From: Tubulanus polymorphus
Lineage: Eukaryota; Nemertea; Palaeonemertea; Tubulaniformes; Tubulanidae
Length of the DNA: 64,000 bases
Reading direction: 5' to 3'
NCBI RefSeq assembly: GCF_964204645.1
Contig: NC_134032.1
Coordinates: 1,638,916 to 1,702,915, forward strand
Positions 1 to 61,528 of the stretch are shown here, piece after piece (the stretch's first letter is position 1; each line of letters begins with the position of its first letter). Made by a program: the position numbers and the translations under genes. The notes under the pieces were generated by a model. It was not told where the DNA came from. It did not search any database and saw only the letters and a list, made by a program, of their open reading frames with translations.

Positions 1-2620
1 ACGGTTATCACTCGGTGGACGTCGATTCGATCTATCAACTAGTGCGAGACCGGAACGTGCACATAGAAACGTGTCCGTGTTCCAGTGTAGTGACCGGCGC
101 CGTAACCGAGGATCTCACTAAACACCCGATTATACGGTAAGATTTCAACCGTTCCGTCTAAGCATTGGTTTACAGTAGTAGGCATCGGACCACAATTAGC
201 TTAGTAGCTCCAAAGATGCGTAGGGCCGGACCCCAAAAAAAGTACCTAGAGTGAGGAAGAGGTCCCCCATAAATGTTGCCATAATTTCTGCAAATGGGAT
301 AGGTAACGAATTTCGGTTATATGTATGAAATCCATTGATCCTGAGGGACAGATCGATGATGAAATAAGGGATTACCTGGACTTTTGCTTGGAGTAAGGGT
401 ACCAAACACGGTGGGGGATTCCCTTAGATATTAGGCTCGGATATACTGGCATACCTGTACTGGGATACCCCTCCTTTCTAAAGGTTTGATTATTTCAAAA
501 GTTAGGTTGGGTATGTGGGGCGAAAACCACTTCAATGCGTAGCTAAGATGCTGGCCTATGAGCCATAAGCAGGATTTCCCCTGAATTTACGCGCTTATAT
601 ATGAACTAAACTCTCGAATTTCTTGTTTTTACTATAGGATATAGAAGATTTTGGAATAGTGGTCTGAGCTCAGTACACTTGGATCTGTTTAGGCCTATTC
701 TGCTCATTCAGTTCATTTGAAGATATTTTAATCGGTATCAAACTGCGGGCTGAATCCTACTTCAGACTTTCAATATCGCCATTTTTCCACTGCTTGACAT
801 TTGACCTTTCGATCTCACCCTAGAGATCATCCCGCTGTATATAGAACTATCGGTTATAACGAACAGATTTTCTGGTCTCCTGAAGTTCGTTCTAACGAGG
901 TTCCGCTGTATATAGAACTATTAGTTATAATGAACAGATTTTCTGGTCTCCTGAAGTTCGTTGTAACGAGGTTCCATCGTAATATTAAAAGGATTCATGG
1001 ACCGCAATGTTTTGGTTGGCACCCCCTCGATATCTTCAGCAAGATGTTAATGCTATGTTGTAGGTTTGCTCGCGATAACGTGAACTACTCGATCAGCACC
1101 GACGATCCAATTATAACCGGCAAGAAGATCGATGATGACTATAGCGTAGTGATCAACGATATGGGTCTTACCGTCGATGAAATTATTAGAACGGTAAGAT
1201 TTGCTCGAATTTATCTACTTGAAACTAGAGTTAATCTGAAAAATAGCTTAACCCTTTCAGTGCTGACTAATCAATACCCTATAGTGCTGAAGATAATTTG
1301 AAAATTTTGAAAAATTCCACCCTAGTGTGTTGAATAACGGGAATACCACTATAGTGCGTCTACACCGCGGCGCGGTGTATCATTAGTTACTAGTATTTTA
1401 CTATGTTTGACAGGTGCTGCCATCTTTCAAGAGAGATTAAATCTAATTACTAATTACACCAACACACCGCAGTGCGGTGTACTAGTGAAATCCATCACCG
1501 ATTTATACACCGCACTGCGGTGTAGACGCACTGAAAGGGTTAAGGCAAATTTATCTTGTCAAATCAGATTTGATTTTCCTAATCATAATTTGCTAGTCAC
1601 GTGTAATCTAATCAAATAAGATTTGCACAACGGGATGAATTTGACGCCTTGTTCGAAACGGCTGACAAGAAAATACTGTCCCACTTTTTGAAATATTATT
1701 TCCTACGAATGAGTTTCAGATTTCTCTTTCAGTTTTCAGTTTTTCGAAAAAAAATTAGTGAGTCCACCATCTTCAAATCGTATCAAATCACCTCCAGGGG
1801 TGATTTGATTATTTGATAAATCGATTTGAATTTGATGCCGTGTTAAATTCAAAAATTAGACCAAATCAAATTTGATTATGCCAGGATAAAAACGATTTTA
1901 CTTAAAATCTAATTTAAACTGACGTGATAAATTCGCCTTTAGTCTTAAGATTGGTCTTGATGTTGGATTTTCCATATCACCTGGCCTTAGCAGTGTTTTC
2001 AATAAGAGCCAGGTCCCAGGTCCCAGACCCGTCTGTTGTTTGTAAAGGACCCGCCTGTTTTTTCAAAACAGCTTTCATTTCCGGGACTGTGACATATTAT
2101 GGGACCCTCCTGTTTTTTCAAAGGGACCTGGCTTGTTAATTCCTTATTGAAAACACTGCTTAGTTCCACAATACTGAGTTGAGTTCAGATCCGACTTACT
2201 CGTCGAAACTGAACTGATTTGACTCGGAGTTAACTCCAACTTATTCTGTGCAACTCAATGAGCGAGGCTTGTTCTCAAGACCGACCCTATTCATAGAGTT
2301 TGAGAATGTGGAAACTTGGCAGCATTTGAACTGTAAATATTTCATAGAGTTGACGATCAGGGAGCTTGGTAGGGGAACCTGTTGTAAATAATTTAGTTGA
2401 GAGTTAAGTTTTCCGAAAGAACTTTTATCAAAATTTTTAATGGAAATCAAATTTTTTCTCAACGCATTTAATTGTTATATTGTAGAATTTGAACGCCGCC
2501 CGATCGACTTTTCTACCTCAAACCGAGAAACAAGAACTGATCGAACGCCTCGAGAAATTCTACTCGACTGAGACGAACGATTTGAAAACTGCTGCGGCTG
2601 CAAATATTACCTCGACTTAG
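1..2620 (+). CDS. ADA: Adenosine deaminase, 3' partial (last three coding exons)
   Basis: Zinc enzyme that deaminates adenosine and deoxyadenosine to inosine forms in purine salvage. Exons: 1-136 (cut by the window edge), 1064-1193 and 2486-2620, stop TAG at 2618-2620. Splice phases agree throughout (CG|G, then phase 0). The translated exons carry the family's GYH segment, a CPCSS block (CPWSS in vertebrate ADA), the NYSISTDDP block with the tandem Asp pair that binds zinc and substrate, and a tail reading NLNAARSTFLP. The N-terminal HxH motif and catalytic Glu/His lie outside the window. The sequence resembles cytosolic ADA1 and not the secreted ADA2/ADGF type, which has SSDDP at this place. 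Intron 2 holds a piggyBac-like MITE and a hAT-like MITE. Assignment is secure; the upstream part is not visible. Confidence 0.93.
1248..1543. mobile_element. piggyBac-like MITE (CCCTTTCAGTGC family), in ADA intron
   Basis: About 290 bp bounded by TTAA-CCCTTTCAGTGC and GCACTGAAAGGG-TTAA. A TTAA target duplication and CCC-initial inverted ends are the hallmark of piggyBac transposition. It has no coding capacity. Internally it holds several short palindromes of the type ACACCGCxxTGCGGTGTA. Eleven or more relatives occur in this window. Confidence 0.88.
1991..2158. mobile_element. hAT-like MITE (CAGTGTTTTCAATAAG family), copy 1
   Basis: The ends are CAGTGTTTTCAATAAGAGCC and its inverse at 2124-2158, and the interior carries GGTCCC blocks. 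A five-base CTTAG repeats on both sides. The CAG...CTG termini suggest a hAT origin. The second copy is at 44973-45135. There is no transposase. Confidence 0.7.
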
Positions 2621-2974
2621 AGACAAAAACCGAGTTTCTCCTACTGTCATATCCGCGTGTCTTCAATCGGTTACATACTTTAATTACTGTCCACTTATGG
2701 CCAGTTGTTCAAAAGTTGGATAAAGTTAGATATCGCGTAGATACTGTATTCATGATGTACACTTAGGTCAAATTATCTCCAGCGCTTTGTGGCATTAATG
2801 AGTCGGCGCTGAAAGGGTTTTAAGCTGTCATCTGATAAATCTTCTCTATTTTACGTCTCAATTTCTTAAATGCAATTCAATTCACTAAGTGTGAGTCATC
2901 ATTTGGTTTAAATTGTTGACATGATGATTTTATGACTACGACGACCGACTTTTGCGAATTTCGCTGAACCGTCA

Positions 2975-3314
2975 GGCCCGGTTTTATAGACGGGTATTAA
3001 CTTTAACCCAGGGGCTAACTACCCCTGTGAAGCTGGCTCCCGGTTCCCGGTTCCTTATTCGGCTCCCGATTCAAAATGCTTTTGAACCGGGAGCCGAAAT
3101 GGGAACCGGGAGCCGGCTACTGGTTCAGCTCCCGATTCAAAATGCTGTTGAACCGGGAACCGGGAGCCGGCTACTGGTTCAGCTCCCGATTCAAAATGCT
3201 GTTGAACCGGGAGCCGAATCGGGAACCGGGAACCGGGAGCCAGCTTCACAGGGGTGGGCTAACTCGTGAGTTAACCACCGGGTTAAAGTCGATACCAGTC
3301 GATAAAACCGGGCC
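2975..3314. mobile_element. Foldback element with CCCGGTTTTATAGAC ends, long GGTTCCCGG-rich arms
   Basis: Near-palindromic block. Both ends read GGCCCGGTTTTAT(A)GAC, followed inward by TTTAACCC and by CTGTGAAGCTGGCTCCCGG. The centre consists of roughly 55-bp repeats built on GAACCGGGAGCCG. Open frames on both strands here are by-products of the repeat. Shorter relatives lie at 44803-44912 and, degraded, near 24660 and 32065. Confidence 0.75.
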
Positions 3315-3930
3315 CTGGCTATCAACTTCAACCAACTCTTGAGCAACCGACCACCAGCTATACACAATCATGTACTCTTTATAAAACGCGATGTTAAATC
3401 TCGATTTCGCGTCAAACTGCCCGTTGTTGTCGAGTGTGGTTTACTCTATTGAAAAGTTGTTTTATATTTATAAGGTAATTTCTATTTTACCCTTAGGCTT
3501 ACCATACTTTTAAAGACGTTTTAAGATAATCAAATTTTTACTTAATTTTAGGGAAAAGATGCCTATGATTTTATCTCATTTCGCTCAGCGCATTGTTAAT
3601 TCATTTCTCCGTAGAAACAATATCCGATGTCCATACGCCGATTTTTTGTTTGGTAGTTTTTGTGTTCCGCTTAAAAGCAACGTGAATGGTGTCGACGTGG
3701 AACTTATGCTCAATTAATATATGATATACCAAAATGGATTGAAAAATCAGTAAATGTTTACATTCCCCTTATTTCCAGCAGTCGCGGTGCCGCCCGGCCG
3801 GTGCCCACTGTTGCTTTTTGCGTGAATTAAATTAACTCGCATGCCCAGTTCCCGTAACAAGGTTGCACGGTCAGTGGTCTCAATATCCTAAGAATTTTTA
3901 GCCTGCATAACAGTTGCCTTGGATTACCTA
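3315..3930. other. Intergenic, no gene seen
   Basis: AT-rich sequence without a splice-bounded reading frame, recognisable repeat ends or RNA gene. Confidence 0.5.
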
Positions 3931-32800: not shown

Positions 32801-35800
32801 CTGATTTTAGCCTCAGATTTTTACCACAAGTTCCAGTTCCACAGTTTGAGTTAAGATTTAACTCTTACGTGTTCATTAACATTGAAAATTAACTAGTTTT
32901 AACTCAAAGCGTTTACTCTTAACTCACAACTGTGGAACCGAGTCCAGAATATCACGATCGAATGGAAAATCAGCTGTACGCGTTAGTAATAGTGCGGGCT
33001 GATGTTCTATGCTAATTCGCTTCATCCTACTAAAATTGGGGCTTGAGTTTTATTCGAATGTACATAAAATGACTACTCTATGAGCTCGGGGAGGCGAAGG
33101 GGGGCTTAAAAAATCAAAGCAGATTTTGAAAGTTCCGTTAAACGCCCCCGCGTTTAATTCGAAGGTAATTCACAACTTGGAGATGTTTTGCTCGAAAGAC
33201 AAATCGTTGGACTACGACCAGGCGAAAAAAGACGCGTCGGCCGCGAAAAAAGATTTCAAAATCGTGAGTAAAAAGCGTGGAAAACTCCAACTAACAATCG
33301 AGTTAACTGACGAAACTAACGAAAGAAATGCCACAATAATGAAGCCAAGATTGAAAAATTCTATATCCGAATGATTGTATTTGAGGAGCGACGTTTCGGC
33401 TAACAACTGTTAGCCATCATCAGGCGTACCGTCGAATACAATCATTCTGATATAGAATTTTTCAATCTTGGCTTCGTTATTGTGGGATTTCTCTCGACAT
33501 CGTCATACACGGATATTGTGTATCTTCTCGTCTAATCGAGTTAACCCTTTCAGTGCTGGCTAATTAATACCCTAAAGTGCTGGAGATAATTTGAAAATTT
33601 GTAAAAATTCCACCCTAGTGTGTTGAATAACGGGAATAGCACTATAGTGCGTCTACACCGCGGTGCAGTGTATCGTTAGTTACTAGTATTTCACTATGAT
33701 TGACAGGTGCTGCCATCTTTCAACAGAGATAATTAGTAATTACTAATTAAATCAATACACCGCAGTGTGGTGTACTAGCAAAACCCATCACTGATTCGTA
33801 CACCGCACTGCGGTGTAGACGCACTGAAAGGGTTATCAAACCAGAAATAATTATGATGTTTGATGAAATATCCATCGTGGAAACATTGTGTCTGATTGAT
33901 TGGTTCAATTTTGTTGGTTTGTATTATTTTCTAGGGGCCGTTCGACGCGTGTAGACAGGTATTCTCCGGGTCGAGTTCGTCTATGACCGTCGACAAACGG
34001 TCGGAGCTATTTTTCGAAGATTACGGCATCATGCCGCTGTTCGTCCAGGAGAACTATATCCAGGTCAAACCGTTTTCAGCCAAGTACGTTTAAAATTCTT
34101 TTTCATTACGAGTCCGCGCAGATTATATATAGTCTCTACAACATGATAAGACAAAAACCCACTATCTACAGATAAAAATAATTTAAAAACAAGAATTTAT
34201 TTTTTCAATCCAAAATATATAGAAGACACGAAGTATAGAATCACCTGACGATGATCTCTAGGACGAGATCGAAACGTCCTGTATTTTGTGTATTTTAGAT
34301 TGAATAACTAAATTCTTGTTTTTAAATTCTTTTAATCTGTAAATAGTGGGATTTTATCATATTATCCGTTCACCACGTTTGAGTGTGGTCATCGTTCTAC
34401 TCTACAACATCCTAGCTTGCCAGCGTTTGATTTCTGCCCGCACCAACACAGACCCTTCATTGGTCTATTACATTGCCCAAGATTTCTTGGGTGAACAGTT
34501 TGTCGCCCAGTGGCCACCGGTTTAAGCCAATCAGATGTGTTGTTTTTCATCGGTTGATTCGCTCTATCAGTTAATACAACGCATCTTATTGGCTAGGTAT
34601 ATAGACTGGTGGCCGCCGAGGGGAAACCAGTCCGCACAAGAAATCTTAGGCAGTGTTTATAGACCAATCAGATTGGCTATGTATATAGACTGGTGGCCGC
34701 TGAGGGGTAACCAGTCCACGCAAGAAATCTTAGGCAGTGTTTATAGACCAATGAAGGGTTTGTGTTGGCATGAGCTTAGGCGGGAGGCAATCAAACCCTG
34801 GCAAGTGAGGATGTCTCAACCGAGGAATAAGATGTGTCTAATTCGCTTACCGATCAATTACAATTTCGATCGGTGTTAATTTTTTTCAGCGGCGATCTAA
34901 AGAAGCATTTATCAGCGTTGAGTACGGCGGCTGACAGCATGTGCGACGGCGACCTGGTCGACCGATGCATTCGCGGCAACGGATGCTGGAGTTTACTCCC
35001 GTTACAGGTACCGGACCTTTCTTCGAGTCTTTGCTCTTGTGATGGCAACTTTTTAACCCTTTCAGTGCTGACCAATTAATACCCTATAGTGCTGGTGATA
35101 ATTTGAAAATTTTGAAAAATTCCACCCTAGTGTGTTGAATAACGGGAATACCACTATAGTGCGTCTACACCGCGGTGCGGGGTATCGTTAGTTACAAGTA
35201 TTTCACTATGTTTGACACGTGCTGCCATTTTTCAAGAGAGATAATTACTAACTACATCAAAACAACGCAGTGCGGTGTACTAGCAAAAATCTATCACCGA
35301 TTAATACACCGCACTGCGGTGTAGATGCATTGAAAGGGTTAACAGTGTCTTTCAATAGACATAAAAACTAATTGCTAATTACATCAATACCCCGCAGTGC
35401 GGTGTACTAGCAAAATCTATCACTGGTTAATACACCGCGCTGCGGTGTAGACGCACTGAAAGGGTTAATTTAAAATTCAGTAGCGTTGGAACCATAGCGA
35501 CTGCAGCGGTGAAAGCCGCGGCAATAATTTAGCGAATGACGTTTTTTTTTTTGTCGAAACTCTGTTTTTGACGAAATTGAAGTAAATTCGTCGCTGCAAT
35601 ATAAGAACCTGTCAAAAATTTCGCCGCGGAAATCAAAAATTGCTTCCAACATTGCGCCTGACATTTTTTCGAATGATTCGAATTCGACAGGGCGTCTACA
35701 GCACGGTGATTCCCGGTACGGTGATGGCCGGTCACATGACGTCGCAGATCTCGTTTCCCGGATGGCTCGGCAAGAATTCGACGACGCGTAAAACCGACCG

Positions 35801-38800
35801 CATCATACAAGAATTGAACTTTCACATGCGATTGAAGTAAGTTAGGTTCGGCAAGTAGAAATTCATTCAGCATTTTCAGGCGAAGTGTGGACGATCAGTT
35901 TTTGAAAGTGTGCTGATAAAATGTCTAATGTCTGGTGTTAGTAGTTCATTTTCAATTAAAAATGTCTCAGGTGAAGCACTGAACACATGTGAAGTGTGGA
36001 CGATCAGTTTTTGAAAGTGTGCTGATAAAATATCTAATGTCCGGTGTTTGTAGTTCATTTTCGATAAAAAGTATCTGGATCGTGACCCCTATTTAAATTT
36101 AAGAAAATTGATTTAAAAATGTGTCATATTTTATTGTCGCCTTAATTTTTTCAGAATTTCGGCCGACAAACGCGCGTTGAACTTGGACTATCGACCGCAT
36201 TTGAAACACGCGTTAACGAAGCCGTTGTTTGGCGACGACTCTACTCGGGTCGGCGAGGTCGTCGCTCTGTTGGACGAGTATTCTCTGTTGAAGGACGATT
36301 TCGACAGCGTGATGGAAATCAGCCAGTGGTCGAATTCTCCGGACGTGATGAGTAAAATACTGCCGAAGGTTAGAAAAAAAAAGTTTGAACTGTTTATTAT
36401 CAGAGGGGCGAATTTGGCCTCGGTTCTCGAAGCGCTGCACAGTCGAGTATCGCACAGAACCACGGAGGACGGCGTGCGGGTCCTACTCCAAAAAATTCTT
36501 CTACGGCCAGATACAATCTGCGCGTTTGTGGGGACACCCGTCCCAAATAAAATCTTAAATATACGGTGGAACCTCGTTAAGTGCGAATCTTTTGGGTAAA
36601 AGTGAAATAGTCGTATTAAAAAGGTTTTCGCGTTATCCAAAGCCTAATTAGTGTAGATATCGATGGCTGGGACGAGCCGGAAATCATCGCGATAAACAGG
36701 TTTCATCTTTAACAAAATTCTAAGGGATCATTCATTTATTACGTACGCATAGAATTTGAAATTTTCAACCCCCCTCCCCCTCTGTACGCAAAATCGGCCA
36801 TTTTTTTTTCGTATACATTGAGCATTACAGTACGCACTGACCCCCCCTCCCCCTCCCCTAATGCGTACGTAATAAATGAATGACTACGAAGGATTCTACA
36901 AACAAATTTCTATTGGATGTAACAATAATATTAGCAAATTGGGCACTTTCCCAAAATTACACCTGCTATGTACGGCCCTGCCCTGATAAGGGGTCATTCA
37001 TTTATTACGTACTCATTAGGGGAGGGGGAGGGGTCAGTGCAATTGCGTACATGTATTGTAATGCTTAATGTATATATAAAAATTGCTGATTTTGCGTACA
37101 GAGGGGGGGGGGTTGAAAAATTCAAATTTTATGCGTACGTAATAAATAGATAATCCCTAAACATGATTACATCATTACAGTTGCTGTTTCCTCAATTGAG
37201 TTCAAAAACTTAAACGCAGTTTCAAAATCGCAGTTTTTTCTATTTTTGGTTATGATATGAGTTCTAGCGAGTTCTAGTTCATCGGCACTTTATTCAATGA
37301 ATTATTTTATTCAAATGAATGATCCCATCTGATGCGATCATATCTAGAATGAAGCCGGTATCGACTCTCAAATCGTAATTTCGTTTCGAATCGCAGGTGA
37401 AAAGCGCGTTCACGCGGCTCTACAACAAAGAATCTCATTCGTTGCCGTACGCGATGACGGCGTCGGTGAAAAAACAACGCAAAACGACGGCCGCCGACGA
37501 CGACGACGGAGGAACGCTGCTCGGAGCGGACGCAGCAGACGCCGCCGATGACGAGCCGGAGAACGACGACATCACAAAAGATGCCATGATTAAAGTATGT
37601 TTACTCATCAGTTTTTGAAAATGGCCCAAATGGGTCGAACGCTCATTGAGTTCTCTCTATGTACTTTTTGTTTTTAAACATTGGTGAAACGGTATATAGA
37701 GAATCCCGCACTGATAAAACGAGAAAGATGAAGTCCGAAAAGTTTCCTTTGAAGATAATAATTTATTGATTCGAAGTTGCGACTTTATCCAAATAGTCGT
37801 CTTCAGGAATACTGTATTCCTTGAGCTAGTTTAGTTTATTCAACGTTTCGACTATATCCTAATAGTCATCTTCAGGAATACTGTATTCCTTGAGCTAGTG
37901 TAGTTTATTCAACGTTTCGACTATATCCTAATAGTCATCTTCAGGAATACTGTATTCCTTGAGCTAGTGTAGTTTATTCAATTTTTCGACTTTATCCTAA
38001 TAGTCATCTTCAGGGATACTGTATTCCTTGAGCTAGTATTGTTTATTCGATGTTTCGACTTTATCCTAATAGTCATCTTCAGGGATACTGTATTCCTTGA
38101 GCTAGTGTAGTTTATTCAACGTTTCGACTTTATCCTAATAGTCATCTTCAGGAATACTGTATTCCTTGAGCTAGTGTAGTGTATTCAACGTTTCGACTAT
38201 ATCCTAATAGTCATCTTCAGGAATACTGTATTCCTTGAGCTAGTGTAGTTTATTCAACGTTTCGACTATATCCTAATAGTCGTCTTCAGGAATACTGTAT
38301 TCCTTGAGCTAGTGTAGTTTATTCAACGTTTCGACTATATCCTAATAGTCATCTTCAGGAATACTGTATTCCTTGAGCTAGTGTAGTTTATTCAACGTTT
38401 CGACTATATCCTAATAGCCATCTTCAAGAATACTGTATTCCTTGAGCTAGTGTAGTTTATTCAACGTTTCGACTATATCCTAATAGTCATCTTCAGGAAT
38501 ACTGTATTCCTTGAGCTAGTGTAGTTTATTCAACGTTTCCACTATATCCTAATAGTCATCTTCAGGAATACTGATGTTGTCCTCATTACAACCATTGATG
38601 AAACACTCTGAGTCCGTGTTGTAAAGATAATATAAAATCCCTGCCCACTAAGAATAGAAAGAGTCTGAAATGTTTCCTCAAACTAGTGTAGTTTATTCAA
38701 AGTTAATAGACATTCATCTTCAGGAATACTGTATTCCTTGAGCTAGAAGTTGATTTAACGTTTTAGACTATATCCTAATAGTCATCTTCAGGAATACTGT

Positions 38801-39065
38801 ATTCCTTGAGCTAGTGTAGTTTATTCAACGTTTCAACTATATCCTAATAGTCATATTCAGGAATACAATATCCTGTTCAGTTCGTAGAATAAGATAGATC
38901 GATAGGCAGACGTTATAAGGGAAGTTGTGTAGTTTCAGTCATGTACGGCGTTTATGTTTGATTTATTTGCAGGTTAAGACGGCAGCTAAATCTAAGAAAG
39001 ACAGTAAAACATCCAAGAGCAAAGACTCGAAACGAGGAGGCAAGGGCAAGGGCAAGGCGAAATAA
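20839..39065 (+). CDS. RFC1: Replication factor C large subunit (clamp loader subunit 1)
   Basis: Opens and loads PCNA in replication and repair. Coding exons: 20839-20841 (ATG only, inferred), 21975-22424, 23426-23615, 25065-25834, 26630-26809, 28334-28447, 29008-29190, 29687-29855, 30605-30702, 31497-31608, 32220-32548, 33165-33263, 33935-34083, 34890-35007, 35691-35836, 36155-36368, 37397-37594, 38973-39065. All junction phases agree: 1204 residues, against 1148 in human. N-terminal DIRKFF and VLDFFG (about 253-258) are conserved short motifs; 8-470 is charged and disordered. BRCT about 472-555, LLWVDKYKP and IGQQGD start the AAA+ module, Walker A GPPGIGKT 704-711, Walker B LMDEVD 771-776. 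The C-terminal RFC1 domain and a Lys-rich tail follow. Exon 2 has a weak donor (AAG|GTTTTT). The single-codon first exon is the only speculative piece. Confidence 0.95.
21068..21105. mobile_element. MITE end, CATCCTCGCTTGCCAGGG family
   Basis: Isolated left end in RFC1 intron 1, followed by matching AACTTGCGCCAACACAAA. At 21370-21392 lies an isolated CACTGAAAGGGTTAA end of the piggyBac-like family. Confidence 0.5.
22956..23251. mobile_element. piggyBac-like MITE (CCCTTTCAGTGC family), RFC1 intron 2
   Basis: TTAA at both borders. Ends are slightly mutated (CTCTTTCAGTGC, GCACTGAAAAGG). Contains ACACCGCATTGCGGTGTA palindromes. Confidence 0.86.
23668..23768. mobile_element. Palindromic AGTTCCACAGTT/AGTTAA MITE, RFC1 intron 3
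   Basis: GGATCCAGTTCCATAGTT at the left and AACTCACAACACTGGGTCC at the right, with inner TTAACTC(A/T)GAGTTAA inverted repeats. Relatives: 6745, 18422, 32835-32946, 40527-40637. Confidence 0.65.
23820..24030. repeat. Tandem repeat, about 60 bp, four copies
   Basis: Repeated TCTATCAAGAAAGCTTAGTG...AAGACTTA...GGGGATGACTT, in RFC1 intron 3. Confidence 0.75.
24217..24505. mobile_element. piggyBac-like MITE (CCCTTTCAGTGC family), RFC1 intron 3
   Basis: TTAA borders. Same orientation as the copy at 1248. Confidence 0.87.
26195..26590. repeat. Direct duplication of about 95 bp, 290 bp apart, RFC1 intron 4
   Basis: CTCATTTCACTGGAAAGAAC through TCCTTCTTAGTAC occurs at 26205-26297 and again at 26498-26587, just upstream of exon 5. 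Confidence 0.8.
27361..27604. repeat. 40-bp tandem repeat, six copies, RFC1 intron 5
   Basis: Unit GTGTGGGGCTGAGCAAAGCC plus TTTAGGCCTCTGTCATTTCC, with few differences between copies. Confidence 0.92.
27640..28020. repeat. Direct duplication, about 95 bp, RFC1 intron 5
   Basis: GGAAGGCTGTATGTCGGGGG through the following TCATAGAGGCGGCC occurs at about 27650-27745 and 27920-28015. Confidence 0.8.
29209..29554. mobile_element. piggyBac-like MITE, long variant, RFC1 intron 7
   Basis: TTAA borders. About 55 bp longer than other copies because the segment with the TTTTGCTAGTACACCGC palindrome is duplicated. Confidence 0.86.
30005..30500. repeat. Tandem repeat, about 48-51 bp, nine copies, RFC1 intron 8
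   Basis: Unit AACTTAAGACCAGTCTAAGC + TCATTTTGGTTCTATAGCCA + ATCTAAC. The left border GGACCGGTTCCATAG resembles the end of the CCGGTTTTATAGAC foldback family, so it may be an expanded element. Confidence 0.88.
30849..31426. mobile_element. Two piggyBac-like MITEs joined head to head, RFC1 intron 9
   Basis: The first copy (30849-31140) ends at ACTGAAAGGG and a second copy in inverse orientation begins at once (TGTCTACACTG..., to GGTTAA at 31426). A nested or recombined insertion. Confidence 0.82.
31768..32061. mobile_element. piggyBac-like MITE, RFC1 intron 10
   Basis: TTAA at both ends, CCCTTTCAGTGC and GCACTGAAAGGG intact. A worn foldback element with CCCGGTTTTATATA ends follows at 32065-32175. 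Confidence 0.88.
32828..32946. mobile_element. Palindromic AGTTCCACAGTT/AGTTAA MITE, RFC1 intron 11
   Basis: AGTTCCACAGTTTGAGTTAA at left, CTCACAACTGTGGAACCGAG at right. Confidence 0.7.
33331..33487 (-). mobile_element. Foldback element with hammerhead-like core (family 2), RFC1 intron 12
   Basis: Arms CCACAATAATGAAGCCAAGA and inverse (ending TATTGTGG) are about 55 bp each and almost perfectly complementary. The loop, on the minus strand, reads CTGATGA-T, GGCTAA CAGTTG TTAGCC, GAAACGTC at about 33389-33425. That is the order of the conserved parts of a hammerhead ribozyme. Ends CCCACAAT-A are shared with 53041-53150 and 61262-61517. Confidence 0.75.
33541..33836. mobile_element. piggyBac-like MITE, RFC1 intron 12
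   Basis: TTAA at left; the right border is GGGTTAT, so one target copy is mutated. Confidence 0.86.
34158..34350 (+). mobile_element. Foldback element with hammerhead-like core (family 3), RFC1 intron 13
   Basis: Arms CCCACTATCTACAGAT and its inverse AATCTGTAAATAGTGGG, plus AAAACAAGAATTTA and its inverse. The centre on the plus strand, at about 34234-34266, reads CTGACGA-T, GATCTC TAGGAC GAGATC, GAAACGTC. Same arrangement as 33331-33487 with unrelated stem II bases. Confidence 0.7.
34409..34816. mobile_element. MITE with CATCCTxGCTTGCC ends, longest copy, RFC1 intron 13
   Basis: Left CATCCTAGCTTGCCAGCGTT and right AACCCTGGCAAGTGAGGATG. Includes two copies of a segment with TATAGACTGGTGGCCGC and CCAGTCC(G/A)C. 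It sits 74 bases upstream of exon 14. Confidence 0.8.
35053..35468. mobile_element. piggyBac-like MITE plus partial second copy, RFC1 intron 14
   Basis: Full copy 35053-35342 with TTAA borders. A 125-bp right-end copy follows directly (35342-35468), sharing the TTAA. Confidence 0.85.
35880..36075. repeat. Direct duplication, about 95 bp, RFC1 intron 15
   Basis: GAAGTGTGGACGATCAGTTT ... ATGTC(T/C)GGTGTT occurs at 35882-35952 and 35991-36062. Confidence 0.8.
36724..36893. mobile_element. MITE with TCATTCATTTATTACGTACG ends, copy 1, RFC1 intron 16
   Basis: Inverted ends GATCATTCATTTATTACGTA and ACGTAATAAATGAATGA. The interior has C-runs on one strand (CCCCCCTCCCCCTC twice). About 170 bp. Confidence 0.82.
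36991..37157. mobile_element. MITE with TCATTCATTTATTACGTACG ends, copy 2, RFC1 intron 16
   Basis: Opposite orientation to copy 1, 98 bp away, so the two form a large inverted pair. A shortened third copy lies at 55241-55320. Confidence 0.82.
37700..38880 (-). repeat. 69-bp satellite with hammerhead-like unit, RFC1 intron 17
   Basis: Twelve units keep an exact 69-base step from 37792 to 38551 (anchor AATAGTC); after a 120-bp interruption more copies end near 38870. On the minus strand each unit reads TATTC-CTGAAGA-T-GACTAT TAGGAT ATAGTC-GAAACGTT-GAATA: hammerhead-like core, 6-bp stem II, and 5-bp stem I between TATTC and GAATA. The unit also has AGGAATAC-T-GTATTCCT. The left border (GAGAATCCC, AAGTCCGAAAA) matches the foldback at 61262-61517, so the array probably expanded inside such an element. 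Catalysis is inferred, not shown. Confidence 0.85.
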
Positions 39066-46326: not shown

Positions 46327-49300
46327 TAGCATTATTATTAATTAGCATTATTATTATTAGCATTATTATTAATTAGCATTATTATTATTAGCATTATTAT
46401 TATTAGCATTGATATCATCAAGCAAATCCGTTGAATTTTGTGGTGTTTTTGTGAGATCACTTTTCTTTATTTATAACTATATGATTCTGTTGTTTCGATG
46501 TACATTTTAGGCCCTTACATAGTCATTGGTGACAATTTCATTTGGACGTTTCCATACATACCTGATTTGAGGCCAATTTGCCAGAATATGAGGCAAAATT
46601 GTTTGGGCACCGATGATTAGATGAACTCGCAGAATTTCATCAGAACTTTACCCTAATTTTGTCAATATTCCTGTTGATGTAGACGTTAGCTTCAATCCTA
46701 GATGATAGACAGGAGCTGGCGTTGAACACATACTGCACAGGATAGTAAAATCCTGCACCAACAGAATAGATAGAAAAACGAAATTTCGTAGTCTGGCAGA
46801 TCCGTTGAATTTGTGTGGTGTTTTTGCGAGATCACTGTTCCTTATTCAAAACTATATGATTCTGTTGTTTTGATGCACTTTTTATGCCCTCATTGGTCGC
46901 CAAAATATATGAAAGGCAAACATTGCGTACTGGTTGTATACTATGTTAAACAATATTATAAAACTGGTTTTTAACTTACTACGCAAGTGTTTGTCATGTG
47001 GCATGAATGGATTCATTGTGAAATGCCTTTTAAGACAATCATTTTTAACCTATGACTTTATAAGAATTTCATACGGATATTATTTGGTTTGATATCGATG
47101 TGAAGATATCTACGCTTACTACAAAGTTGAATCGATTGAGAGGTTTTGTGAAACTTGATGATAAAATATGAAGGAAAGTTTGTTCGAAAAAGACGCGACT
47201 TTAGCAGACGCCGATTACGGCAGTTTGTCCGAGAACGTTAGTAGATTTGAGACGCGAGAGCGGGGGCAATCGTCGCGAGGATTTTCTTGTAACATCCGCT
47301 GTCAGGCGAACCGTATAGTTATTGTCGGAATCGTGAGCTTCGTGTTGCTTATCGTCAACATGTCATCGGGAACAATAGTAGCCGTCGTTTCCGAGATGCA
47401 AGGTGGATTTCGCAATAACTCGTCGTTTACGGATCGTCATATCGCCGAGAATGTAGCCATTACTAAAGCTGTATTTGAAGTCGGATTGGTGGTCGGGAGT
47501 ATTATCTGCGGTCGACTGACGTTCAAGTACGGCCACGTATATTCGTTCTGGTTCGGTATCGTATTCGGACTCGTCGGCACGCTCGTCTCCGCGTTCGCGC
47601 CCGTCTGGTGGATGTTGACGATTCTACATTCGTTCGTCGGACTTTCGCGGGCGTTCGTTCTCAACGCCGGATCGACTATGGTGGCCGTCGCTTTTCGAAA
47701 CGACGCCTCGCGAGTTCTAGCTTTAGCGATCGTGTATAGTTGTAACCTTACGGGTACTCGGTACGGATATTCGTTGAGTCTGTACGAGATACAATGGATC
47801 GGATGCGCCGTACCGTTTTTCTCTCTTTTCGGCCTTCTGGTGATAGCTGCCGTATTTCGCGCTTTCGTCGAAATTGAGAATAACATTGCCGAAACGCTCG
47901 AGGAAAAACGCATCCACCTCGACCCGATAAAAGCGATGTTGACCGATACCCAAACGATCGTTCTTTTCCGGCTGAGAAGTATCTTCATCGTTAGCGCGAA
48001 TGTCCATTACGAGTTCGCGCCTTTGTTGGTCGAGCGGGTCTTACCCGACGCGAAACATCGGCAGCTAGGAACGATCGTGTTCTTATCGACGACGATATTT
48101 ATAATTAGCACGAACGTACTCGGCTTATTGGTGGCGAAAACTAGAAATTATCGTCGGATTTATTTCGTCGGTTATTGCGCGATGGCGACGATCTCATTCG
48201 CGTCGTACCCGTTTGCGCGATACATCTGGCAAGCGTTCGCTGCGGATAATCTTCGTGCGTTGTCGTTCGCCCTCGAGAATAGTTTCTACTTTTCCTGGTT
48301 GTCCGATGTCGCCGATGAGAAATTTAACGGTTATTACGAGACTATTTATGCAATAGATGCCGTTATATCGCGTGTCGTAGCTATCATACTGATGTTGATA
48401 TTGGGCGCTGTGCAACCGTTTATCGGATACTCGGCCATTTTTATTGGCGTCGGTGTTGTGAATTTTACTTATTCTTTTACGTCACTCGTAATGCGAGATG
48501 CGGCAGGGTCGATTCAACATTCACCGGACTAGCAGCTCTGTGCTGCATATTGATGTATCTATTTGTAAACGAGAAATCCGTAAAATCAATAAAAAGTGAA
48601 ACCACACCTTTTGGATATATTTTTGTGATATTTTCTGGTATTCAATGATGGGGGTTGCAAAGAGACATAAGATAAAACATTCTGAAAGAGGTACCTTACC
48701 GAGGTATTCTGATAGGAACCTTACCAAGGTATTCTGATAGGTACCTTACCAAGGTATTCTGATAGTTACCTTACCAAGGTATTCTGATAGGTACCTTACC
48801 AAGGTATTCTGATAGGTACCTAACCAAGGCATTCTGATAGGAACCTTACCAAGGTATTCTGATAGGTACCTTACCAAGGTATTCTGATAGGAACCTTACC
48901 AAGGTATTCTGATAGGAACCTTACCAAGGTATTCTGATAGGTACCTTACCAAGGTATTCTGATAGGTACCTTACCAAGGTATTCTGATAGGTACCTTACC
49001 AAGGTATTCCGATAGGTACCTTACCAAGGCATTCCGATAGGTACCTTACCAAGGTATTCCGATAGGTACCTTACCAAGGTATTCTGATAGGTACCTTACC
49101 AAGGTATTCTGATAGGTACCTTACCAAGGCATTCTGATAGGTGCCTTACCAAGGCATTCTGATAGGTACCTTACCAAGGTATTCTGATAGGAACATTACC
49201 AAGGTATTCTGATAGGTACCTTACCAAGGTATTCTGATAGGTACCTTACCAAGGTATTCTGATAGGAACCTTACCAAGGTATTCTGATAGTTACCTTACC

Positions 49301-52300
49301 AAGGTATTCTGATAGGTACCTTACCAAGGTATTCTGATAGGTACCTTACCAAGGTATTCTGATAGGTACCTAACCAAGGCATTCTGATAGGTACCTTACC
49401 AAGGTATTCTGATAGGAACCTTACCAAGGTATTCTGATAGGTACCTTACCAAGGTATTCTGATAGGAACCTTACCAAGGTATTCTGATAGGTACCTTACC
49501 AAGGTATTCTGATAGGAACCTTACCAAGGTATTCTGATAGTTACCTTACCAAGGTATTCTGATAGGTACCTTACCAAGGTATTCTGATAGTTACCTTACC
49601 AAGGTATTCTGATAGGAACCTTACCAAGGTATTCTGATAGGAACCTTACCAAGGTATTCTGATAGGTACCTTACCAAGGTATTCTGATAGGTACCTTACC
49701 AAGGTATTCTGATAGGTACCTTACCAAGGTATTCTGATAGTTACCTTACCAAGGTATTCTGATAGTTACCTTACCAAGGCATTCTGATAGGTACCTTACC
49801 ATGGTATTCTGATAGGTACCTTACCAAGGTATTCTGATAGGTACCTTACCAAGGTATTCTGATAGGAACCTTACCAAGGTATTCTGATAGTTACCTTACC
49901 AAGGTATTCTGATAGGAACCTTACCAAGGTATTCTGATAGGTACCTTACCAAGGCATTCTGATAGGTACCTTACCAAGGTATTCTGATAGGTGCCTTACC
50001 AAGGTATTCAGATAGGTACCTTACCAAGGTATTCTGATAGGAACCTTACCAAGGTATTCTGATAGTTACCTTACCAAGGTATTCTGATAGGAACCTTACC
50101 AAGGTATTCTGATAGGTACCTTACCAAGGCATTCTGATAGGAACCTTACCAAGGCATTCTGATAGTTACCTTACCAAGGCATTCTGATAGGAACCTTACC
50201 AAGGTATTCTGATAGGTTCCTTACCAAGGTATTCTGATAGTTACCTTACCAAGGTATTCTGATAGGTACCTTACCAAGGTATTCTGATAGGTACCTTACC
50301 AAGGTATTCTGATAGGTACCTAACCAAGGTATTCTGATAGGTACCTTACCAAGGCATTCTGATAGGAACCTTACCAAGGCATTCTGATAGGTACCTTACC
50401 AAGGTATTCTGATAGGTACCTTACCAAGGTATTCTGATAGTTACCTTACCAAGGCATTCTGATAGGAACCTTACCAAGGTATTCTGATTGTTACCTTACC
50501 AAGGTATTCTGATAGGTACCTTACCAAGGTATTCTGATAGGTACCTTACAAAGGCATTCTGATAGTCACCTTACCAAGGAATTCTGATAGGTACCTTACC
50601 AAGATATTCTGAAAGAGGAACCTTACCAAGGTATTCTGATAGGTACCTTTCCAAGGTATTCTGATAGGTACCTTACCAAGGTATTCTGATAGTTACCTTA
50701 CCAAGGCATTCTGATAGGAACCTTACCAAGGTATTCTGATAGGTACCTTATCAAGGTATTCTGATAGGAACCTTACCAAGGTATTCTGATAGTTACCTTA
50801 CCAAGGTATTCTGATAGTCACCTTACCAAGGTATTCTGATAGTTACCTTACCAAGGTATTCTGATAGGAACCTTATCAAGGCATTCTGATAGGTACCTTA
50901 CCAAGGTATTCTGATAGGAACCTTACCAAGGTATTCTGATAGGTACCTTACCAAGGTATTCTGATAGGTACCTTACCAAGGTATTCTGATAGGTACCTTA
51001 CAAAGGCATTCTGATAGGAACCTTACCAAGGCATTCTGATAGGTACCTTACCAAGGTATTCTGATAGGTACCTTACCAAGGTATTCTGATAGGTATCTTA
51101 CCAAGGTATTCTGATAGTTACCTTACCAAGGCATTCTGATAGGTACCTTACCAAGGTATTCTGATAGTCACCTTACCAAGGTATTCTGATAGGAACCTTA
51201 CCAAGGTATTCTGATAGGTACCTTACCAAGGTATTCTGATAGTTACCTTACCAAGGTATTCTGATAGGAACCTTACCAAGGTATTCTGATAGGTACCTTA
51301 CCAAGGTATTCTGATAGGAACCTTACCAAGGTATTCTGATAGGTACCTTACCAAGGTATTCTGATAGGAACCTTACCAAGGTATTCTGATAGGTACCTTA
51401 CCAAGGTATTCTGTTAGGTACCTTACAAAGGCATTCTGTTGATGTCAAAGCAGGATTCATGAAGTCAGTAATCTCATCAGAAAGGCTGTATATAAAAACG
51501 TTGTGTTTATATGAAGGCACTGTATTTCAGGTAATCGCACGCACAATGTCGGGAATGATTGACAAGCTGTCGACGGCAGTGTTAGACCACGCCTCCCCGA
51601 ATATGATCAACAATAACGTATTGATTTCTCGACTGAAGAAACCGAGCAGTAAAGACTTGACCGCGTTAACTTCGGATGAAGATCAACTGAAGTTAGAGTT
51701 CGGGGCGCTAACGAATATGGTAATTAACTCCTTAATTAATATCGGCCTGTAATTACCTACGTAAAATACCAACTGGTTTATGGATTCGAAAAGGCTTTTA
51801 GAAGTTTACAGTTTCGACTCATTTCTATGCAAAATACACAGTGGCCTGGCACAAAAAGTTTATGACCCCAGTATCCTAGGTACTGGGGTCAAAAACTTTA
51901 TGTGTCAGGTCCCTGTGGCGCAATAAAATGTTCAGGGTTTGGAGGAAAAATTGGCCTAATTCGTTTAAATTGTTCAAATTATTGCTCACGACATTGTATT
52001 TGTTTATAGTGAACATGTAACGGCTTATAATTTGTTGGTAATGTTTATAGTGAGTTACGAGGTCAATGGTTGTTATTATGTTCACCAGGGGGCGTTGAAT
52101 AGTGAAATGATGTTTCATATCCTTTTATATTGGCACCTAGATTGGTACCTTAAGTTATGAGGTCATTGGTTCTGATATGCTTACCTTCTTTTTATATTGG
52201 CGCCTGATATTCTTACTTTTTAGAATTGGCAATATAACGTAGAGGATACTCTGGACAGTTGCTTAGCACTCGTAAACAATGAAATGAGAGCCAGCAAGTT

Positions 52301-61247: not shown

Positions 61248-61261
61248 AATAATGCTCTTCG

Positions 61262-61517
61262 CACGATTGGTAGAACACTATATCCGTGTTGACGCGATGA
61301 GCAGAGAATCCCACAATGATAATAAAAAGTCCGAAAATGAAACTTCGAGACAGTAGTTTATTTCAACGTTTCGACTATATCCTAATAGTCATCTTCAGGA
61401 ATGATTCATCTTCATTCCTGAAGATGACTATTAGGATATAGTCGAAACGTTGAAATAAACTACTATCTCGAAGTTTCATTTTCGGACTTTTTATTATCAT
61501 TGTGGGATTCTCTCCTC
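61262..61517. mobile_element. Foldback element with two opposed hammerhead-like cores (family 1)
   Basis: Flanked by an 11-bp direct repeat AATGCTCTTCG (61251-61261 and 61518-61528), read as a target duplication. Arms of about 100 bp from GAGAATCCCACAATGATAAT inward are almost perfectly complementary. Each arm contains GAAACGTTG and CTGAAGA-T flanking GACTAT TAGGAT ATAGTC, the same core as the 69-bp satellite in RFC1. Inserted into the BEL remnant, so it is the younger element. Confidence 0.82.
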
Positions 61518-61528
61518 AATGCTCTTCG

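Follow-up and report, generated by a model that had tools for sequence, protein, structure and literature searches.

A 69-bp satellite of Tubulanus polymorphus probably derived from the minimal hammerhead motif of a Penelope-like element

The tandem array in the last intron of RFC1 in the palaeonemertean Tubulanus polymorphus is best explained as a 69-bp satellite that arose from a minimal type I hammerhead of the pseudo-LTR of a Penelope-like element (PLE), with the RFC1 copy most likely a passenger. The probability of this reading is put at about 0.88. As judged from the genomic sequence, it draws on complete elements with one copy of the unit in each flank, on other families with the same core and covarying stems, and on several arrays that continue into PLE flank. 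The array lies in a 64-kb stretch of DNA, here called the window, which was analyzed together with the rest of the genome.

The RFC1 intron array and its hammerhead motif

A preliminary description of the window had placed twelve 69-bp units, and further units past a break, within an intron of RFC1. Both statements were borne out. The RFC1 C-terminal domain lies at 36117-36599, the exon preceding the array ends at 37594, the last exon begins at 38973, and the stop codon is at 39065. The array is therefore located in the last RFC1 intron, with its ribozyme strand antisense to the gene (Table 1). This antisense orientation makes it most likely that the array in RFC1 is carried along passively. 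Tandem Repeats Finder returned a main array at 37769-38573 with a period of 69, 11.7 copies, 95% matches, and no indels, and a second, short array at 38714-38866. One unit of the main array (37767-37812) is decayed. The break that separates the two arrays is itself PLE-like when aligned to the element described below. A BLAST search of the array against plasmids gave no match, in line with expectation.

On the minus strand, the order within the unit is TATTC / CTGAAGA / T / GACTAT-TAGGAT-ATAGTC / GAA-ACGT-T / GAATA. Reading of each unit agreed with the earlier claim that the named parts follow one another in hammerhead order. The ACGT sits directly before the predicted cut site, and a stem III loop is absent. 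With a strict descriptor, which required CTGANGA, tolerated a single extra base at most, and asked for GAAACGTH and for no fewer than 4 bp in each of stems II and I, seven sites were identified in the window. All seven belong to this array, and the descriptor matched nothing in 60 random windows of a Markov-1 model. GAAACGT is part of the search pattern, and hence its constancy is not independent evidence. The core, both stems, and ACGT are intact in 7 of the 11 near-complete window units. Together with the PLE open reading frame (ORF) found between copies and the covariation of the stems, the descriptor supports the proposal of a Penelope-kind hammerhead motif in which a palindromic ACGT replaces stem III.

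The comparison with the Rfam hammerhead families that had been suggested as a check was negative. Hammerhead_1 (RF00163) and the other hammerhead models stayed below threshold, with no match in the window, and in the species' own genome the best RF00163 score was 22.4 against a cut-off of 34 bits among the 73 of 34410 candidates that were scored. This result says little, because Rfam likewise missed loci where other PLE hammerhead families are represented by copies that are intact.

Table 1. Features of the window related to the 69-bp array and to PLE hammerheads
Feature	Position	Strand	Basis
RFC1 last intron, host of the array	37595-38972	+ (gene strand)	Reading frames, GT/AG borders
PLE-like flank past the last unit	37690-37766	-	19/30 and 30/46 aligned positions identical to complete element
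Main array, twelve 69-bp units, each with a putative PLE-type minimal hammerhead	37767-38573	-	Minus-strand reading, Tandem Repeats Finder, strict descriptor, R1 model
Inter-array stretch, PLE-like (resembles sequence downstream of hammerhead)	38574-38692	-	Alignment; outer part 51/79 aligned positions identical
Second array: units 38821-38866 and 38751-38797, and deleted remnant 38693-38729	38693-38866	-	Tandem Repeats Finder, R1 model
Putative hammerhead of another PLE family, stem II GGCTAAC/GTTAGCC	33384-33429	-	R1, 59 bits; sequence used to build R1
Hammerhead-like copy, CTGACGA, stem II GATCTC/GAGATC, no core-adjacent stem I pair	34239-34284	+	R1, 40 bits; used to build R1
Fold-back PLE copy with two head-to-head hammerheads (61359-61404, -; 61412-61457, +)	61250-61526 (approximate borders)		11-bp duplication AATGCTCTTCG at ends; R1

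The Penelope-like element and related hammerhead families

The 39-nt core of the unit was found at 1261+1230 places genome-wide at up to three mismatches, and the reversed control gave 0+0. Single copies arranged as inverted or direct pairs account for many of the 100 core places listed, and a direct pair with a spacing of 2857 bp recurs (loci L033, L040, and L041). In L040, the units at 798 and 3655 enclose an ORF of 833 codons (838-3339) in the same sense as the units, and a domain scan of this frame detected RVT_1 (E 6.3e-10) and GIY-YIG (E 1.6e-5). Similar long ORFs were read in L031, L032, and L034. An ORF with RVT_1 and GIY-YIG domains that is framed by the copies therefore identifies the element as a PLE. 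Relatives of its reverse transcriptase (RT)-endonuclease part in the protein database number 2368 at E <=0.001; among 120 of these 2368, the best named RT-endonuclease relatives are from shrimp and crayfish, with 40-42% identity. Target-site duplications of 11-13 bp were observed at 11 of 12 element loci, including the fold-back copy in the window, and the twelfth locus tested (L042) has a 16-bp match at its ends. The end of the PLE, as read from the sequence, follows the stem-loop AACACGGATATTGTGTT. Judged by these loci, the source of the 69-bp unit is a predicted PLE hammerhead, present as single copies in direct or inverted PLE flanks.

The inverted pairs had also suggested a DNA transposon with terminal inverted repeats, a candidate that was ruled out by the PLE-like ORF inside. 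Six aligned rows keep 37-38 of 39 core positions and between 16/30 and 30/31 of the next 30 or 31, and the core keeps 23/30, 31/37, and 33/39 positions in three decayed rows and 27/37 in a family-2 row; the contrast between core and flank is not evidence of selection, because most loci were picked by that core.

The same core occurs with other stems. A stem-free pattern, CTGATGAT...GAAACGTT, gave 333+327 matches genome-wide (reversed control, 0+0), and the 100 matches listed contain several stem II sequences, including GGCTGTT/AACAGCC, GGCTAAT/TTTAGCC, GGCTAAC/GTTAGCC, GACTGTT/AACAGTC, and others. Covariation was evaluated on 80 sequences with an 18-nt stem-loop II, taken from 101 distinct hits in the fetched loci. 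The main family had been fetched with stems in the pattern and the other families without, and only the first 14 main-family sequences with its shared first bases were kept. Over stem I (5 bp) and stem II (7 bp) of these 80 sequences, 77.4% of cells pair compared with 63.5% in shuffles, both-side changes amount to 168 cells compared with 70.0, and the covariation score is 0.393 compared with 0.175 when shuffled and at most 0.160 when slid. None of 500 shuffles, which leave the relatedness of the sequences in place, reaches any of these three values. Two measures are weaker, namely 11 pairs changed on both sides (reached by 4 of 500 shuffles) and 30 further pair types (25 of 500). For stem II alone, no shuffle among 500 reaches any of the five measures. 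Stem II is strong, with 82.5% of cells pairing and each of its seven pairs changed on both sides somewhere. Stem I is weak, with 70.3% of cells pairing and one family having 2-3 bp. On this alignment, a predicted hammerhead core with covarying stems I and II is present across the 80 distinct sequences.

A covariance model (R1) built from this alignment matched 19 window sites at E <1e-4, 15 of them in the two arrays. Twelve fall in the main array, from whose units R1 was partly built. The R1 result is a map and not a test, because several of the matched sites built the model.

Several further copies were observed. The two other-family PLE hammerheads of the window (Table 1) lie less than 1 kb apart, upstream of the RFC1 C-terminal exon. 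Dispersed family-2 copies, found without GAAACGT in the pattern, have lost CGTT in 15 of the 100 listed, a loss that speaks against cleavage. Another locus (L112; G000:C2:10184900-10185560), which is not close to the chromosome end, has a pair of family-2 hammerheads that point the same way at a spacing of 211 bp, the size of a metazoan retrozyme repeat. A fold-back PLE copy elsewhere in the genome (L069:1508-1588) gave sub-threshold Rfam hits to microRNA precursors (mir-4662, 48 of 97 bits), and fold-back copies of this kind are a possible source of false microRNA calls.

The U that follows CUGANGA is a conspicuous part of the motif. It had been described as present in all copies and as possibly lowering or abolishing activity. 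The U is near-constant but not universal, since two window units (38250-38295 and 37767-37812) have C at this position. It does not signal decay either, as the extra U is retained in further hammerhead families of this genome. Genome-wide, 660 CTGATGA matches continue with T (control, 0) and 45 with a different base (control, 6), and part of these 45 are plain point mutants of the same families. CTGAAGA followed by another base gave 45 matches (control, 10) versus 2491 places of the main core, which allow up to three mismatches and are not strictly alike with the 45. These counts thus indicate that the U is a feature common to these families. T also follows CTGANGA in 100 of 101 distinct sequences, a figure not counted as evidence because most loci were fetched with patterns containing that T. 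The sequence CTGANGATG contains ATG, and the U could be kept by shared descent or as an ancestral start codon as well as by catalysis. An extra nucleotide in the core of a viroid hammerhead was reportedly described by De la Pena and Flores in 2001 and is said to be tolerated there. The near-constant U suggests that motif searches that disallow it miss such hammerheads.

Origin, self-cleavage, and chromosomal placement of the arrays

The array junction occurs at 650+708 places genome-wide (1358) at up to three mismatches, with none in the control. PLE flank is recognizable past the last unit in the five arrays aligned (the window, L028, L046, L047, and L049). A 10-bp repeat flanks the L047 array and its tail on both sides; for the other 10 of the 11 arrays tested, exact repeats framing the insertion did not exceed 8 bp. 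Identical unit variants recur in arrays on different chromosomes, and a T-to-A variant in stem II is present in 61 of 132 units. From the PLE flanks, the framing repeat of L047, and the shared unit variants, the arrays look like hammerhead multiplications inside short PLE derivatives. The arrays in the window and in L023, L046, L047, and L048 seem to start no more than a few bases from where the 5' strand of stem I lies, which would fit a hammerhead that marks the insertion's 5' end.

The proposed course of events begins in the RNA of the element, where two hammerhead copies would pair through the self-complementary ACGU. The resulting double hammerhead would cut between GUU and GAAUA, perhaps aided by the element's protein. 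A short nonautonomous PLE with a duplicated hammerhead may have expanded by slippage, unequal exchange, or repeated copying by reverse transcription, and the expanded arrays would have spread among chromosome ends, with one copy reaching the RFC1 intron.

The arrays might also be active minimal retrozymes, with transcripts that self-cleave into 69-nt RNAs. Ligation would turn these into circles, and the PLE reverse transcriptase would copy them back, so that the arrays grow and spread. The state of the units is consistent with such activity. The core, 4 bp of each stem, and ACGT are kept in 92 of 116 near-complete array units (16 of 132 units, with more than four mismatches, were dropped before the count), and the presence of the same unit variants on different chromosomes fits as well. 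Fold analysis indicates that a nested double hammerhead of two adjacent units, at their 69-nt spacing, does not require a pseudoknot, and this spacing would favor ACGU-ACGU pairing between units. According to the available parts of a review (PMC6466107), a palindrome and tandem order are needed for eukaryotic dimeric hammerheads, and in other animals circular RNAs arise from hammerhead repeats of ∼170-400 nt in tandem, as described in the accessible text of PMC7229834. Against activity, purifying selection on ribozyme sites within the arrays was tested and not found (46 events at 36 sites versus 34 at 33); the ten core sites alone have 0.7 events per site versus 0.84 in the linker. The best two-unit fold with a double hammerhead lies 12.5 kcal/mol above the minimum (-16.9 versus -29.4), and that of three units 15.4, in energies that ignore tertiary contacts. 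What disfavors the double hammerhead is a competing hairpin, GGAAUAC-A-GUAUUCC, that the array unit can adopt. In addition, the unit is far smaller than the reported retrozymes. The PLE hammerhead of Anolis, in the available text of PMC11167929, cut only with protein and was not required for in vitro insertion, and its cleavage site did not coincide with the end of any read. Active retrozymes in the arrays therefore appear unlikely.

The placement of the arrays is distinctive. Twelve long contigs (C1-C12) make up 261.7 of the 267.8 Mb of the genome, and the window is on C8. C10 begins with ACCCTA repeats; telomere repeats were absent at the other contig ends seen. Exact junctions formed 18 clusters among the 100 places listed (C1-C5), and none of the 18 is farther than 1.31 Mb from a contig end. 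For a rarer variant, the complete list comprises 30 places in 24 clusters on 7 of the 12 long contigs, and all 24 are within 1.74 Mb of an end, a zone that covers 16% of C1-C12. The chance of this would be ∼1e-19 for independent clusters, which these hardly are. By comparison, 3 of 44 single-copy loci (listed core places, C1-C5) lie within 1.75 Mb of a contig end. For this control, 55 C1-C5 loci were grouped by hand into 11 arrays and 44 single copies, from list spacing and fetched loci; 11 places on C6 were left out, as the listed places reach 0.59 Mb of that contig. Among the matches listed for the other families (C1), 8 of 61 loci are within 1.75 Mb of an end, where 11% are expected. Sampled 69-bp arrays are thus near contig ends, and single copies of the same hammerhead are spread. 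With ∼1.68 Mb between it and the start of C8, the RFC1 array is one of the innermost arrays sampled. Array clusters were sampled on C1-C6 and C8-C11 (on C6, L046 and L047). The window also holds ∼110 copies of a 25-bp unit at 48689-51438, exact double units of which occur nowhere else in the genome.

That arrays but not single copies are close to the ends is a testable puzzle. One answer would be that the array and its motif serve a function at chromosome ends, such as a part in recombination or in maintaining subtelomeres, in which case the hammerhead shape would be hitchhiking. The end zone that holds every sampled cluster of exact junctions and of the rarer variant, and few single copies, argues for such a role. 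The 25-bp array, the one comparison satellite tried for end bias, is however a single-locus array, and tandem repeats often gather near chromosome ends without any function. An end function is accordingly held to be improbable. It is also quite doubtful that the satellite is a tiny self-cleaving one, whose 69-nt RNAs would be circularized and copied back into chromosome ends by the Penelope reverse transcriptase; if true, a ribozyme cycle would be tied to subtelomeres. A chance hammerhead resemblance in the terminal repeat of another transposon, to which the inverted pairs at first sight and the absence of an Rfam match might point, is highly improbable given the PLE ORF inside, the fixed core with stems that covary across families, and the lack of strict matches in the random windows.

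Comparison with known hammerhead systems

Minimal type I hammerheads in PLE pseudo-LTRs have been reported (Cervera and De la Pena 2014; Lunse et al. 2017; both as cited in the available parts of PMC7761336 and PMC6466107). The motif described here resembles them in its element with RT and GIY-YIG domains, in the copies within flanking repeats, in the core with covarying stems I and II, and in the absence of a stem III loop, in place of which a palindrome could join two copies. Unlike them, as far as these sources describe, one family here turned into a 69-bp satellite. The near-constant U after CUGANGA is a possible further difference from the published motifs.

A close parallel is PAc, the Poseidon element of Anolis carolinensis, which in the accessible text of PMC11167929 also has a hammerhead in its pseudo-LTR and an AC-rich stem-loop tail; the stem-loop AACACGGATATTGTGTT resembles this tail, at which reverse transcription of the Anolis element begins. 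The ORF of PAc starts at stem II, with C3 and G8 preceding the start codon, from which its ATG probably supplies the same U. In contrast, the ATG of the main-family hammerhead here, as read from the sequence, meets a stop after five codons. Hammerhead-only arrays, as found here, are not among the features of PAc in the available text.

Metazoan non-LTR retrozymes, newt satellite 2, and axolotl repeats share with the present arrays a type I hammerhead in tandem repeats, and the available portions of PMC7229834 and PMC7761336 describe amphibian hammerheads with a weak stem III that act as dimers, and axolotl PLEs that carry minimal hammerheads in tandem. Metazoan retrozyme monomers in these portions are ∼150-400 nt and are shown as circular RNA, whereas the unit here, at 69 bp, falls outside this size and is known from DNA. 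The Terminons and Athena elements of bdelloid rotifers (available text of PMC6431247 and PMC12477314) likewise combine a PLE, a hammerhead, and chromosome ends. Terminons are endonuclease-deficient PLEs; by contrast, a GIY-YIG domain is present here (L040), single copies are dispersed, and only the arrays are near the ends.

PLE hammerheads, their tandem order, and their presumed dimeric action are already known (PMC7761336 and PMC7229834, in the parts available). In the literature surveyed, which the main primary papers lie outside, neither a 69-bp satellite made of hammerheads only nor the placement of one close to chromosome ends is reported. What appears to be new here is a PLE hammerhead multiplied into a 69-bp satellite near chromosome ends. 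The role of PLE hammerheads is still called a mystery in the accessible part of PMC7761336. With complete elements, fold-back copies, a hammerhead-only satellite, and more than one family of PLE hammerheads together in a single chromosome-scale genome, this role becomes testable.
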